From: a virus
Reading direction: 5' to 3' (one strand)
IMG/VR virus record: IMGVR_UViG_3300042691_012319
Location: 1 to 23,899 of that record
Length of the DNA: 23,899 nt
Shown one piece after another: positions 3,260 through 23,227 of this stretch. The notes beneath the pieces were generated by a model, which had not been told where the DNA came from, searched no databases, and saw nothing but the letters and a program-made list of their open reading frames with translations. Position 1 is the stretch's first letter, and each line of letters begins with the position of its first letter. The translations under genes and the position numbers were made by a program.

Positions 3260-3279
3260 TGTGGGATACTGAAACCATG
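3260..3279 (+). promoter_or_regulatory. repeated start-site box, copy B (TGTGGGATACTGAAACCATG)
   Basis: Second copy of the box found at 963-982, again ending in the start codon of the next gene. The sequences just before the two copies also correspond: CCTTGTGT is followed directly by GGGATACTG here, while copy A has eight more bases between two TGTG repeats. Because a terminator lies immediately upstream, this box is a reasonable candidate for a promoter that restarts transcription. No convincing -35 box was seen. Confidence 0.4.
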
Positions 3280-7190: not shown

Positions 7191-7630
7191 ATGTTACTGT
7201 CTCACTCAAGACCACTGGTCTAGATGCCTACAAGGCGAATCTAGGCAAGATCACTATGATTGTGGGTAAAGCTGCGGCAGACGTTGAAGCCAACGCTAAA
7301 ACCAGTATTGCCATGAGTAGCGGGCATTACAAGGAATATAAATCAAAACGTGGTGATGACAAGATTCACTGGTCAAGCCCTCCCGGTTCACCACCTAATA
7401 GCGATACGGGCTTCCTTGCTAATAGCATCACTCACGCGATGCAACTAGATAGAAGCAAGGGTGTATCTGCAACGGTCAAGGCTGATGCAAAGTACGCAGT
7501 ACCGCTTGAGCTTGGATGGACTTCTAATGGTGGCAACTCTGTACCTGCTAGGCCGTTTATGGAACCGGCGCTCATGGCTATTAGACCAGTCTTTGTTCGT
7601 GCGCTTAGAAACGTTTTACGAGGCCAATAA
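7187..7630 (+). CDS. HK97 gp10-like head-tail connector / minor tail protein
   Basis: A 147-residue protein with the HK97 gp10-family pattern. A helical N-terminal half with 'KAAADVEANAKTSIAM' is followed by 'SPPGSPPNSDTGFLANSI', a surface loop typical of the family, and the C-terminal 'ELGWTSNGG' and 'VPARPFMEPAL' motif. These proteins join the tail to the head-completion complex. The start is GTG at 7187, overlapping the upstream TGA as GTGA; the ATG four bases later is out of frame. The 3' end couples to the next gene by TAATG. Confidence 0.85.
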   Translation: MNVTVSLKTTGLDAYKANLGKITMIVGKAAADVEANAKTSIAMSSGHYKEYKSKRGDDKIHWSSPPGSPPNSDTGFLANSITHAMQLDRSKGVSATVKADAKYAVPLELGWTSNGGNSVPARPFMEPALMAIRPVFVRALRNVLRGQ

Positions 7631-8106
7631 TGTCGTACGAAATCCCGACTATAGATCAATGGATTTATGAAACATTAACGGGTGATACTACGCTCGCTGA
7701 GTTGCTTGCGCCTGATAACAAGCCGGGCGGTTATCAGATGGGTATTTACAATAGTGTTGCGCCTCAGATTGACCCTATAAGCCGCAAGCAGGTTCAAGTG
7801 CCTTACGTGGTCTTTTCGTCTACATCGCAGACCGTGGTAGAGCGTAGCTTGTGTAATGGCAGATTCCTCACCGACAGCGGGTATCGGATTACCGTGTGGG
7901 ATACTGCAAGTGGAGCCGTGAGCATGGCGAGAGCGCAAAACATACTAGCAAGGATTGATACTCTGCTCGATGGGCAGACAGTAACAAGCACAACGCCAGA
8001 CCTGTTTTGCACTCGCGATGTAGCCGGACAATCCTTTGTTTTGTCGGAAGGTGGTCGGACTGATGTTGCCGTAACCGCCACGTACATCATTCAGTCTGTG
8101 GAGTAA
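7630..8106 (+). CDS. tail terminator protein (DUF3168-like)
   Basis: A 158-residue protein placed between the gp10-like gene and the tail tube gene, where tail terminators are normally found. Recognisable features are the N-terminal helix 'WIYETLTGDTTLAELL', then 'QVPYVVFSSTSQTV', the central 'TDSGYRITVWDTASGAVSMA' and a helix 'AQNILARIDTLLDG', ending in a strand 'VAVTATYIIQSV'. This order matches the DUF3168/gpU-type fold, whose hexamer caps the finished tail tube. The gene also contains an internal copy of the GTGGGATACTG core (about 7892-7902), encoding V-W-D-T; this copy is probably incidental. Start overlaps the upstream stop by one base. Confidence 0.78.
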   Translation: MSYEIPTIDQWIYETLTGDTTLAELLAPDNKPGGYQMGIYNSVAPQIDPISRKQVQVPYVVFSSTSQTVVERSLCNGRFLTDSGYRITVWDTASGAVSMARAQNILARIDTLLDGQTVTSTTPDLFCTRDVAGQSFVLSEGGRTDVAVTATYIIQSVE

Positions 8107-8109
8107 CTT

Positions 8110-8556
8110 ATGCCAACACCTATTCTAGTCAGCAACGCAATTGTAGAGATATCATTTGGAACCGATCCGCAGCTAGGCGCATCGCCTACGCCTGCATCGC
8201 CTTCCACTGGTTATACCTGCCAAGCAAAGAGCGTCCGTGCTTCCATCCAGTCGAGCACGATTGATATCTCTACCCTTTGTTCTACCGTCATTGAGACCCT
8301 TGAAACCCGTAAGACGGGTACGCTTGAGATTGAACTCTATGTGGACAAGACCACTGGCCCTATCTTCCGCGACAAGGTTGGTTACTTGTGCAAGGTTGAA
8401 ATCGACCTTGATGGTGCTGGAACAGTGGCATCTATGACCAAGGTCTACAATGGCTTGGTGACTGATGCGACAACTAACCTTACTCCTGGTGAAGTTAGCA
8501 CAGAGACTGCAACCATCACCCTTGGCGGATTCGGCTTCACAACGGTGGTTAGCTAA
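8110..8556 (+). CDS. major tail (tube) protein
   Basis: A 148-residue, beta-rich protein with the tail-tube pattern. 'YTCQAKSVRASIQSSTIDI' is followed by 'TGTLEIELYVDKTTGPIFRD', a helix-strand region, and the ending 'STETATITLGGFGF', like the 'v..t.t..v.G.p' ending of TP901-1/lambda gpV-type tube proteins. Location directly before the G/G-T frameshift pair and the tape measure gene supports this strongly. Three bases separate it from the upstream stop and the next gene begins in its stop codon (TAATG). A high-level product is expected. Confidence 0.85.
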   Translation: MPTPILVSNAIVEISFGTDPQLGASPTPASPSTGYTCQAKSVRASIQSSTIDISTLCSTVIETLETRKTGTLEIELYVDKTTGPIFRDKVGYLCKVEIDLDGAGTVASMTKVYNGLVTDATTNLTPGEVSTETATITLGGFGFTTVVS

Positions 8557-16719: not shown

Positions 16720-16769
16720 AATGGCTGTATGCCTTCCGGTGGGATACTGCTGGTGAGGTAACAGCCATT
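16720..16769 (+). promoter_or_regulatory. inverted repeat enclosing the ribosome binding site of the phosphoesterase gene
   Basis: AATGGCTGT (16720-16728) is perfectly complementary to ACAGCCATT (16761-16769). The right arm covers the first two bases of the TTG start codon. The loop holds the Shine-Dalgarno-like GGTGAGGT (16752-16759) and the GTGGGATACTG core (16739-16749). In RNA this stem would cover the initiation codon and could control translation; in DNA it could be an operator. Confidence 0.5.
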
Positions 16770-19655: not shown

Positions 19656-19684
19656 ATAATATATTCTAACGGTGTATATGTCAA
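19656..19684 (-). promoter_or_regulatory. leftward early promoter (TTGACA-17-TATTAT)
   Basis: On the minus strand, TTGACA (19684-19679) and TATTAT (19661-19656) are 17 bp apart. The spacer contains ATATACACC, the complement of the GGTGTATAT element also found at the 18111 operator. Transcription would start near 19649 and run into the recombination operon. Confidence 0.8.
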
Positions 19685-19693
19685 GTCTTGACA
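19679..19693. promoter_or_regulatory. palindrome made by the two opposing -35 boxes (TGTCAAG T CTTGACA)
   Basis: A perfect 7-bp-arm palindrome in which each arm is the -35 box of one of the divergent promoters. A dimeric regulator bound here would block or touch both RNA polymerases, making this the most probable operator of the early switch. Confidence 0.65.
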
Positions 19694-19715
19694 ATATACT
19701 AAGTGTGTATATACA
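19688..19715 (+). promoter_or_regulatory. rightward promoter (TTGACA-16-TATACA) for the HTH regulator
   Basis: TTGACA (19688-19693) and TATACA (19710-19715) are 16 bp apart. A start seven bases past the -10 would fall at about 19722, directly at the ATG at 19723, which has no Shine-Dalgarno sequence. This suggests a leaderless mRNA. Confidence 0.7.
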
Positions 19716-19722
19716 ATGGGGC

Positions 19723-19974: not shown

Positions 19975-20283
19975 ATGCGACGATGCAACGAATGTGGGAA
20001 CTCGGTAGAAGATACAGATCGAATGTGTACGGCTTGCCGGTTGGCAGAATGGCGGCACTTTGAACGCCATGCACAGCAGGCACGTAGACGGCAGGAGGCA
20101 CTTGATGCTAACCGACAGGCACACAATGCAAGGCGGCGTAACATCGATGGTGCAATCAAGGCAGGCATTATCACTGCGGTTAGCGTGATGCTGTTCCTTG
20201 CTCTGGTATCTGCTACCCGTGATGCTATGCGATACGAGTACATCACAAAGCCTGCAATGCTCAAGGCAAACGGTGTTAGATGA
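19975..20283 (+). CDS. membrane-anchored zinc-ribbon protein
   Basis: A 102-residue protein. The first 21 residues form a zinc ribbon with C4-x2-C7 and C18-x2-C21 ('MRRCNECGNS', 'MCTACR'). An arginine/glutamine-rich helical linker follows (about 25-58, 'RRRQEALDANRQAHNARR'), then one transmembrane segment at about 63-80 ('AGIITAVSVMLFLALVSA') and a short tail. By the positive-inside rule, the basic linker and zinc ribbon would face the cytoplasm. Function unknown; membrane tethering of a regulatory or DNA-handling complex, or superinfection exclusion, are guesses. An AGGAGATAAA site precedes the ATG. The stop overlaps the methyltransferase start by 4 bases (ATGA). Confidence 0.72.
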   Translation: MRRCNECGNSVEDTDRMCTACRLAEWRHFERHAQQARRRQEALDANRQAHNARRRNIDGAIKAGIITAVSVMLFLALVSATRDAMRYEYITKPAMLKANGVR

Positions 20284-21254
20284 GTAACTATACATTACTG
20301 CAAGGGCATTGTCTGGAAGTACTCCGGACACTGCCTGCCGAATCGGTGCAAACCTGCATCACATCCCCGCCTTACTTTGGCTTACGTGATTACGGATGCG
20401 ATGGGCAGATAGGGCTAGAGTCTACACCTGATGCTTTCGTATCTTCATTGGTTGATGTGTTTGCAGAAGTGCATCGAGTCTTGAAATCAGACGGTACGCT
20501 TTGGCTAAACCTTGGTGACAGTTATGCTGCACAGCGTGGCGGCACTTCAATGCCAGCGGAAACATTAGCCGGTGGTATTGGTGGCAAAGGTGACAAGGCT
20601 GCACACCGTGGACATGATGGAGCAGCTGGACACGCACACCGAAACGCCAGCAATATAGGGCTAAAGCACAAAGACCTTATCGGCATCCCTTGGCGTGTTG
20701 CTTTTGCCCTCCAGCAGTACGGCTGGTATCTACGGCAGGACATCATCTGGCACAAGCCTAACCCTATGCCGGAATCGGTAACTGACCGATGCACCAAGGC
20801 ACACGAGTACATCTTTCTGCTGTCAAAGTCAGACCGCTACTTTTACGATTACGAAGCAATAAAGGAAGATGCCATTACACCTCCTACTGTAAGAGATAAA
20901 CACGCTGAAGGATACCAAGCAGATTATTCAAAGGGCGATAGGTTCAGCTCTGGTGCTCGTGTATATGGCGCAGATGGTAGACGCAACAAACGAAGCGTCT
21001 GGACTGTATGCACAAAGCCCTACAAGGGCGCACACTTTGCCGTATACCCAACCGAACTGATACGACCTTGTATCCTTGCCGGTAGCCGTCCCGGTGACAC
21101 CGTGCTTGACCCATTCAATGGAAGCGGTACAACTGGTTTTGTATCAATGGAAGAACGGCGGAAGTACATCGGGATTGATATCAACGATGAGTACTTAGCC
21201 ATTGCAGAGGCTCGAATCAAATCAGCTCAGGTTCAAGAACAGATGGACTTTTAG
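20280..21254 (+). CDS. DNA (cytosine-N4 or adenine-N6) methyltransferase
   Basis: A 324-residue SAM-dependent DNA methyltransferase with beta-class motif order. The catalytic motif IV 'TSPPYFGLRDYG' (28-39, SPPY at 29-32) comes early and the SAM-binding motif I 'DPFNGSGTTG' (277-286) is near the C terminus, followed by 'KYIGIDINDEYLAIAEARI'. The region between, including 'LGDSYAAQRGG' and 'FALQQYGWYLRQDIIWHKPN', carries further conserved motifs and the target-recognition part. SPPY alone does not separate N4-cytosine from N6-adenine enzymes. No restriction partner is adjacent, so it is probably a solitary protective or regulatory enzyme. Overlaps the previous gene by 4 bases and the sigma gene by 1 (TAGTG). 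Confidence 0.9.
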   Translation: MSNYTLLQGHCLEVLRTLPAESVQTCITSPPYFGLRDYGCDGQIGLESTPDAFVSSLVDVFAEVHRVLKSDGTLWLNLGDSYAAQRGGTSMPAETLAGGIGGKGDKAAHRGHDGAAGHAHRNASNIGLKHKDLIGIPWRVAFALQQYGWYLRQDIIWHKPNPMPESVTDRCTKAHEYIFLLSKSDRYFYDYEAIKEDAITPPTVRDKHAEGYQADYSKGDRFSSGARVYGADGRRNKRSVWTVCTKPYKGAHFAVYPTELIRPCILAGSRPGDTVLDPFNGSGTTGFVSMEERRKYIGIDINDEYLAIAEARIKSAQVQEQMDF

Positions 21255-22075
21255 TGCAGGTTAGACCAAGCATAATACGGCAGACGCTCCGGAAGCTGAG
21301 ACAAGCCCCGGAGCGTTTGCTGTCTCATGACGAGATGCTACTGCTGCACTACGGCTGGTCACATGGCATCGAAAAGGACGAGTGCCTAGATGCTATGATC
21401 CGCCATAACTTTGCCTTCATCAGGGAGGTATGCAAGGTCATCAAGCACAAAGAACATTTCACGGATGCCTGCCAGTACTGCGTTGAGGGCTTGATACGAG
21501 CGATCGAAAAGTGGGAACCAGAGCGTGGATTGAGGTTTAGCACCTATGCACATCCTTGGATTTACCAGAAGCTTAGGCGATACCAAAGCAACCAATACAG
21601 AACCATCCGGATTGCCGAACACACACTGGTCAAGTGGCACAAGCTCAAGCGGCATTATGTCATACTGGAACTCGAACTAAAGCGACCACCCACAGATGCA
21701 GAACTAGCCGAGCGTAGCGGGATGAGCCTAGAGACCATCGACATCTGCCGTACCGCAGCAGGCATTGAGCCGATGTCCATAGAAACCCCGGTACAAGGCT
21801 CCGAGCTGGTCTTGGCGGATACTGCGGTATTCGGATCAACACCAAGCGCGGAGGATGTTTTTTTCAATGAAGCCGAGGAAGGAACCCTAACCGAAGCCCT
21901 CGGAAAGATGGATGATGAAACAAGGCAGATGGTAGCCCTACACCTTGGGCTTGATGGACGTGTACCGCAGACGATACACATGGTAGCCAGCCGTTACCGT
22001 ATACCGCCCGTGGTGGTCAAAGAGCGTATCAATAAGGCATTGCAGGAACTGAGGAACATCCATGAGACATCTTGA
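21254..22075 (+). CDS. phage-encoded sigma-70 family RNA polymerase sigma factor
   Basis: A 273-residue protein with the region order of a sigma factor. Region 2 spans about 45-112: 'MIRHNFAFIREVCKVI' (2.1), 'DACQYCVEGLIRAIEKWEPE' (2.2-2.3) and 'GLRFSTYAHPWIYQKLRRYQ' (2.3-2.4), closely matching the sigma-70 'G..GL..A...fD...G..FstYA.wWIr' pattern. 'RTIRIAEH' resembles region 3.0, and 'RPPTDAELAERSGMSLETI' region 3. Region 4 is about 210-268, with 'MDDETRQMVALHLGLDG' and an HTH-like 'TIHMVASRYRIPPVVVKERI'. It should bind host core RNA polymerase and direct it to phage promoters. Region 1.1 is absent. The GTG start shares its G with the methyltransferase stop (TAGTG), with no strong ribosome site, suggesting coupled translation. 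Confidence 0.85.
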   Translation: MQVRPSIIRQTLRKLRQAPERLLSHDEMLLLHYGWSHGIEKDECLDAMIRHNFAFIREVCKVIKHKEHFTDACQYCVEGLIRAIEKWEPERGLRFSTYAHPWIYQKLRRYQSNQYRTIRIAEHTLVKWHKLKRHYVILELELKRPPTDAELAERSGMSLETIDICRTAAGIEPMSIETPVQGSELVLADTAVFGSTPSAEDVFFNEAEEGTLTEALGKMDDETRQMVALHLGLDGRVPQTIHMVASRYRIPPVVVKERINKALQELRNIHETS

Positions 22076-22421
22076 AGACCGAGAGCAGATAGCCCTTATC
22101 ACTTGGGTACGGCTGATGGAATCCAAACACCCTGAGTTATCAACCATCTACCACTGCCCCAACGGTGGACACCGTGACATCAGGGCAGCTGCAAAGTTCA
22201 AAGCCATGGGAGTGAAGGCGGGTGTCTGGGATATCTTCCTGCCTTGCCCAGCGCCGGGGCTCTACATCGAGATGAAGGCTGGTAAGGGCAGGCTAACACC
22301 GGGGCAGGTGTCCTTTAGGGATGCCTTGCTACCGTACGGGTATTCTTTCGTGGTGGCTTATAGTTGGGTTGATGCTGCCAAGGCTATAGGGAGTCACATT
22401 GGCTTTGAGGTTACCTTATGA
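22062..22421 (+). CDS. VRR-NUC domain nuclease
   Basis: A 119-residue single-domain nuclease. It matches the VRR-NUC form of the PD-(D/E)xK fold: 'REQIALITWVRLM' opens the domain (E8), 'HCPNGGHRDIRAAAKFKAMG' comes next, then 'VKAGVWDIFLPCP' with D57 and 'GLYIEMKAGKGRLTPGQ' with E70 and K72, and Q82 in the following helix. Stand-alone members are common in phages and are thought to act on branched or structured DNA, for example in replication or recombination intermediates. The ATG lies 14 bases inside the sigma gene, and the stop overlaps the next start by 4 bases (ATGA). Confidence 0.87.
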   Translation: MRHLEDREQIALITWVRLMESKHPELSTIYHCPNGGHRDIRAAAKFKAMGVKAGVWDIFLPCPAPGLYIEMKAGKGRLTPGQVSFRDALLPYGYSFVVAYSWVDAAKAIGSHIGFEVTL

Positions 22422-23227
22422 ATCCATACCTCATAGATGAACCACAGGTAGTTAGTTTCTCTGGCGGTCGTACATCTGGCTTCATGCTCTGGCAGATTGT
22501 TCAGGCTCATGGTGGCACTTTGCCGGATTACGTCAAAGTAGCGTTTGCAAATACTGGGCTTGAGCATCCAGCCACATTAGACTTTGTAAAAGCCGTCTCA
22601 GAGAACATCACGCCTGTCACATGGATTGAATATGTCAACTCCGAAGAAGGTAAGAACACTTACAAGGTGGTTGATTATCAAACCGCATCACGTAATGGTG
22701 AACCTATGGAAGCCATTATCGCGAAGCGAAACTACCCACCGAATGTTGTCAGCAGATACTGCACGGCTGAAACCAAGATAAGACCGATTGCCAAGTACAT
22801 CAAGCAATCAACAGGCTGGGATACTTGGACAGATCTGATCGGCTTACGAGCTGATGAACCAAGGCGTGTACATAGACTAAAGTCTGATGGCAAGCGGGAG
22901 ATTCTATGTCCTATGTACCACGCTGGGCATACGTTAAAAGATGTCTTGGATTTCTGGGCATCAATGCCTTTTGACCTTGACCTGCCACACAAGGATAATT
23001 CATACGGTAACTGTGTCTGTTGCTTTCTCAAAAGCACACCAAAGATTCTGCGGATTATGGCAGAAGAACCAGACAAAGCAGACTTTTGGATTCGTATGGA
23101 AGAACTCAAGGGACAACCTTTTAGGCGTGACCGAGCGCCATATAAGCAACTACTAGACATGGCAACCAGTCAAGGTTCTATGGACTTTTCAGATGATGAC
23201 TTGTTTGAATGCAACTGCACTGATTGA
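22418..23227 (+). CDS. PAPS-reductase-like / adenine nucleotide alpha-hydrolase family protein
   Basis: A 269-residue ATP-PPase-type protein. The P-loop 'SGGRTSG' (15-21) is close to the SGGKDS pyrophosphatase motif. 'VAFANTGLEHPATLDFV' is the usual second strand/helix, and 'VSRYCTAETKIRPI' (C115) is the conserved family signature. 'LIGLRADEPRR' and a cysteine group 'GNCVCCFLKS' (C199, C201, C202) plus C164 and the C-terminal 'FECNCTD' follow. The cysteines suggest a metal or iron-sulfur site, or redox chemistry. Family members include PAPS reductases and DndC-type DNA sulfur-modification enzymes, so the substrate is uncertain. The neighbouring methyltransferase and nuclease allow, but do not prove, a role in DNA modification. 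Confidence 0.78.
   Translation: MNPYLIDEPQVVSFSGGRTSGFMLWQIVQAHGGTLPDYVKVAFANTGLEHPATLDFVKAVSENITPVTWIEYVNSEEGKNTYKVVDYQTASRNGEPMEAIIAKRNYPPNVVSRYCTAETKIRPIAKYIKQSTGWDTWTDLIGLRADEPRRVHRLKSDGKREILCPMYHAGHTLKDVLDFWASMPFDLDLPHKDNSYGNCVCCFLKSTPKILRIMAEEPDKADFWIRMEELKGQPFRRDRAPYKQLLDMATSQGSMDFSDDDLFECNCTD

Follow-up and report, generated by a model that had tools for sequence, protein, structure and literature searches.

The 23,899 bp linear IMG/VR fragment analyzed here (hereafter the window) encodes a sigma-70 family factor, and the window and its relatives carry a short, strictly positioned sequence box at their virion genes. We consider it very likely, from comparison of these sequences, that the phage sigma is made early and directs the host core RNA polymerase to extended -10 late promoters without a -35 element, that the resulting virion mRNAs are leaderless, and that sigma and box have diverged together. 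The identity of the sigma protein is in itself ordinary; the interest lies in a set of putative late promoters that are fused to start codons and vary with the sigma allele.

The product of positions 21254–22075 (+ strand; GTG start at 21254, stop at 22073–22075, 273 aa) is securely a member of the sigma-70 family, as the original prediction proposed, with Pfam, NCBIfam, PHROG, PDB-sequence, and fold searches in agreement. Pfam region 2, the part responsible for core binding and for recognizing and melting the -10, scored 37 bits against a cut-off of 24, and residues 43–271 are spanned by two full-length models, NCBIfam RpoD_Cterm (2.9e-29) and PHROG_351 “RNA polymerase sigma factor” (3.7e-34). 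Regions 2, 3, and 4 had all been called readable; region 2 is clear, but regions 3 and 4 (24.1 and 22.1 bits) fall just under their Pfam cut-offs and are weaker than that description implied. Among the relatives' sigmas, Sigma70_r2 was matched in 29/29, and at E ≤ 0.01 region 3 was found in 29/29 and region 4 in 22/29. A PDB sequence search returned SigA chains (8e-24). The AlphaFold model, built on aligned A- and B-allele sequences (see below), has a mean pLDDT of 73, up from 57 in the first model made before allele B was added; it matches sigmaA chains from structures of initiation complexes (prob 1.0, E 7e-9), with a low global TM-score because its domains are arranged differently from those of sigmaA. 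Relatives of the window sigma in GenBank phages are at most about 32–35% identical. The original prediction also held that such factors are uncommon in small siphovirus-like genomes. For phages of this size they are indeed uncommon, yet there is a precedent: the small tailed Synechococcus phage S-CBS1 (genome ~30 kb) likewise has an RpoD-like sigma, 27% identical to that of the window. Reassignment of stop codons is ruled out, since TGA ends the sigma gene and others. An Rfam search of the sigma region gave no match, and a prophage/host search of genome contigs found no relative of the sigma or the portal protein.

Within the window, GTGGGATACTG occurs in four exact copies, all on the + strand (964, 3261, 7896, and 16739), and was found 0 times in 100 dinucleotide shuffles. 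Two of these copies end 5 nt short of ATGs at 980 and 3277. The first putative late promoter (TGTGGGATACT, 963–973, + strand) has its predicted +1 at 980, the A of the ATG of a protease/scaffold-like gene that precedes the gene for the major capsid protein. The second (3260–3270, + strand) directly follows a terminator-like GC hairpin with a T run, and its predicted +1 at 3277 is the A of the ATG of a head-tail adaptor-like gene. A putative internal late promoter (7895–7905, + strand) lies inside the ORF at 7630–8106, upstream of the ORF at 8110, with a predicted +1 at 7912. These boxes had been described as repeated in intergenic regions; the repetition is confirmed by the four exact copies, but the copy at 7896 is intragenic. 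The fourth (16739–16748, + strand), ahead of a metallophosphoesterase gene (16768), is an exact 11-mer that lacks T at -17; its -1 base is a pyrimidine and its +1 base a purine. At its position the relatives have no box, except for a degenerate one in contig G029, and it is a weak candidate for a promoter.

The relatives comprise 31 IMG/VR contigs with a close sigma (71–97% identical). In all of them taken together, GTGGGATACT is found on the sigma strand only and at four recurring places. One is in front of the portal gene, where the box immediately follows a terminator-like hairpin; two others are in front of the adaptor gene and of the protease-like gene that precedes the capsid gene; the fourth is within a tail gene. 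The gap between box and ATG is exactly 6 nt at 52 of the 55 start-codon sites and 5 nt at the remaining three. For a start-codon census we used an unbiased set in which genes were found by protein and only unique starts were counted. The box GTGGGATA[CG]T precedes the portal gene at 53/53 unique starts, the protease gene at 48/48 (with a gap of 5–6 nt at every one of these related starts), and the adaptor gene at 32/32. No Shine-Dalgarno sequence was seen at these portal, protease, and adaptor starts (0/133). A pyrimidine, C or T, stands at -1 before the ATG at 133/133 boxed starts, which are related and not independent, yet concur across three unrelated genes, compared to 245/546 other starts. 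The intragenic box is present in 14/14 orthologues, where its codons GTG-TGG-GAT-ACT are invariant while adjacent codons vary synonymously; codon usage would give this choice with an expectation of 2% per independent lineage. At the internal sites, where there is no start codon, the pyrimidine at -1 is kept as well, and nearly all also have the purine at +1. Neither the phage group nor the box was described in the literature we searched, coverage of which was incomplete.

The anatomy of the box is that of a promoter element. Its bases are T-17 G-16 T-15 G-14 G-13, followed by GATACT at -12 to -7, so that T-15 G-14 G-13 stands directly upstream of GATA[CGA]T in the layout of a TRTGn extended -10 element with G replacing T at -12. 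No -35 element is common to the four site classes and nothing is shared upstream of about -18; at the portal and adaptor sites a terminator fills the -35 zone. Six nucleotides is the standard distance between -7 and +1, and the pyrimidine at -1 and purine at +1 fall where an extended -10 promoter would be expected to start, about 7 nt past the last base of the hexamer. A 6-nt gap followed by the A of ATG therefore predicts initiation on the start codon itself, i.e., a leaderless mRNA. The reading of the boxes as extended -10 late promoters paired with the phage sigma is well supported, and the sequences argue strongly both for the pairing and for leaderlessness. The suggestion that the sigma would explain the boxes has thus gained ground from their fixed sites in dozens of related phages, their extended -10 anatomy, and their change with the sigma allele.

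Promoters of a different kind serve the early region. Towards the xre-methyltransferase-sigma operon there is TTGACA-18-TACAAT (19688–19717, + strand), and towards the ERF/Gam operon TTGACA-17-TATTAT (19656–19684, − strand), each an 11/12 match. The leftward promoter scores 11–12/12 in nearly all relatives, and their divergent early region has TTGACA-16/17-TATAAT, again 11–12/12 in nearly all. Since these promoters are near-perfect, the host enzyme evidently uses promoters of the ordinary consensus type, and the late box is unlike what the host sigma uses. In the mechanism we propose, host RNA polymerase would transcribe the early operon, including the sigma gene, from these canonical TTGACA/TATAAT promoters. 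The phage sigma would then take the host core polymerase to late promoters consisting of a single T(G)TGG-GATA(C/G/A)T element with no -35. Initiation on the A of ATG at three virion-operon starts would yield leaderless portal, protease/capsid, and adaptor/tail mRNAs, and the copy inside the tail gene would boost expression of the next tail gene. As a separate observation, the rightward early promoter (window 19688–19722) ends 5 nt ahead of an ATG in the gene for the xre-like repressor, whose message may also be leaderless.

The sigma locus exists in three alleles, A (the window), B, and C, which are 26–44% identical and lie before the same VRR-nuclease gene. Allele B, found at 23 loci, is 42% identical to A, and identity for allele C is 26–30%; flanking genes are mostly 74–95% identical between A and B and about 45–72% between A and C. 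With allele A the box reads GATACT at 18/18 protease and 18/18 adaptor sites. With allele B it reads GATAGT at 6/7 protease and 6/6 adaptor sites, the type-B contig G062 having retained GATACT at the protease site, and with allele C it reads GATAAT at 3/3 sites. Portal and internal boxes are GATACT whether the allele is A or B; position -8 therefore probably tolerates more than one base, and box and allele are only partly associated. Contig IMGVR_UViG_3300042429_000522 (62,434 bp) contains two units of about genome length, one A-type and one B-type, each with its own form of the box; it probably represents two phages joined, perhaps by assembly. In gene trees of the protease and the adaptor, A and B are intermixed. 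Independent contrasts of box against allele were concordant in about 3.6 of 4 cases for the protease and 2 of 2 for the adaptor, with none discordant, numbers too few for significance. By association only, sigma and box appear to have diverged in step across the three alleles. It is an even call whether these phages form a mosaic group with interchangeable sigmas, each reading a matching fused “promoter-start codon” box, with leaderless virion regulons and with alleles partly isolated from one another in transcription. A search for boxed relatives lacking a sigma, made via VRR-nuclease neighbors, returned only contigs that carried sigma A, B, or C or ended at the sigma locus, and unrelated phages. 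Very distant sigma homologues (L035–L037) showed no clear repeated box ahead of ATG.

Residues that contact DNA offer a possible basis for the G at -12. A review of promoter contacts (PMC2613000) has Q437/T440 contacting -12, H455/E458 contacting -14, and R584/E585/R588 contacting the -35 element. Compared to E. coli RpoD, alleles A, B, and C all keep W434, R441, and H455 and have R in place of T440. E458 is missing from all three, as are R584, E585, and R588, the residues for the -35. It is plausible that Arg at 440 is linked with G at -12, although R440 also occurs in the sigma of cyanophage S-CREM2. A -35 or other contact by the window sigma is possible, as region 4 is retained. The replacement of R584/E585/R588 in every allele sets these proteins apart from group 1 (housekeeping) sigmas, and the presence of region 3 sets the window sigma apart from ECF (group 4) factors, which have regions 2 and 4 only.

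An alternative is that the boxes are extended -10 promoters for the host's own sigma and that the phage sigma serves otherwise, e.g., by diverting polymerase from host genes. TGn together with A-11 and T-7 does resemble a host extended -10, and host sigmas can use promoters without a -35 element (PMC2613000). We nevertheless regard this as unlikely, given that the early promoters show the host reading TTGACA/TATAAT, whereas in the late box G-12 is constant and a -35 is lacking, and that its -8 base varies with the phage sigma allele.

Still less probable is that the box is no promoter but an element for translation initiation or one associated with starts, comparable to the start-associated sequence (SAS, GGGATAGGAGCCC) of cluster K mycobacteriophages. 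Both are short, conserved, asymmetric sequences right ahead of start codons; the box always takes this place at three genes, and type-B boxes (GTGGGATAGTGGAGCC) resemble SAS at first sight. However, SAS has a Shine-Dalgarno core and is found at non-structural genes (PMC3203893), and it has no known link to a sigma, whereas the box stands at virion genes and the AGGAG core, which pairs with 16S rRNA, is absent, none of the 133 boxed starts having a Shine-Dalgarno sequence. Terminators immediately precede the portal and adaptor boxes, and the box is equally conserved inside the tail gene, where no start codon follows; this intragenic copy, with its pyrimidine at -1 and purine at +1, argues against a purely translational element. 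That the box is instead a boundary sequence at which phages recombine more readily, or that some other phage protein binds it, would fit the high mosaicism of the genomes and the position of boxes at operon borders, but seems very improbable in light of the fixed 6-nt spacing to ATG, the pyrimidine at -1, the strict orientation, the -10-like pattern, and the intragenic copy.

Late promoters read by a phage sigma have precedents. T4 gp55 lacks region 4, works with gp33/gp45, and recognizes late promoters reduced to a -10 element; the window sigma differs in being a full RpoD-like protein with regions 2, 3, and 4. For phiEco32 gp36, middle/late promoters with a single element (tAATGTAtA) and starts 6–8 bp downstream were shown experimentally (PMC8948821). 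The likeness lies in the use of a phage sigma with the host core and one conserved element without a -35, which in our case is predicted from sequence. Unlike gp36, which has no region-4 homology, the window sigma has region 4, with its -35-contact residues replaced. Our box is also an extended -10 of TGn type with predicted initiation on the ATG, and both its sequence and the type of phage differ. Late sigma gp47 of phage 7-11, also shown experimentally, is distant from the sigma of a relative, and the promoters of the two, at similar genome positions, have diverged as well (PMC8948821). Sigma and promoters differ together in our phages too, again at similar genome positions. The 7-11 promoters, in contrast to our single-element box, are bipartite (GTAAtg-16-aCTA) and are not described as leaderless, and the A and B alleles here circulate within one mosaic phage group. 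An earlier 7-11 promoter motif predicted from sequence (PMC4331800) was contradicted by the later primer-extension motif (PMC8948821). Our prediction is likewise sequence-based, but it draws on many more genomes, on a strictly kept spacing, and on a box that varies with the sigma allele.

To our knowledge, few phage sigmas have been paired with the promoters they read, and earlier predictions made from sequence alone have failed. Dozens of natural variants make the pairing testable here, both Arg 440 with G at -12 and the allele with the -8 base. The virion regulon would possibly be expressed wholly from leaderless mRNAs, and small sigma/promoter pairs of this kind could be useful as orthogonal transcription tools.

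A further observation concerns the large terminase gene of the relatives, which lies outside the window (e.g., at about 27280–28383 in G003 and about 2176 in G029). In 25 of 70 distinct genes a 9-nt insertion with a TGA in frame, TGAGTAGGT in 24 and TGAGTAGAT in one, immediately precedes the Walker A motif RRFGKTT. Where the insertion is present, the codon preceding it is always GGC. It resembles a recoding site, either for stop readthrough or for a hop from Gly to Gly like that of T4 gene 60, but in one lineage the codon at the landing place is GAT.

Upstream of the sigma gene the window encodes an N6/N4 DNA methyltransferase (20280–21254, + strand; Pfam PF01555, 2.4e-52), whose stop overlaps the sigma start (TAGTG). 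The translational coupling proposed for the two genes is borne out as far as this TAG/GTG overlap goes, but the methyltransferase is not a constant partner, most relatives carrying another gene upstream of sigma. The 5′ coding region of sigma contains a conserved RNA hairpin (21277–21323, + strand; dG -41.2 kcal/mol for 92 nt, z -5.5). Across 54/54 genes of alleles A and B, codons 10–12 (CAG ACG CTC) and 19–21 (CCG GAG CGT) do not change, unlike their neighbors, and the two alleles are nearly identical over the first ~30 aa and 42% identical over the remainder. Alleles may have been swapped at this junction, the region may act as a control element in the mRNA, or both may hold. A PAPS-reductase-like gene (window 22418–23227) follows sigma downstream as part of one series of overlapping genes.
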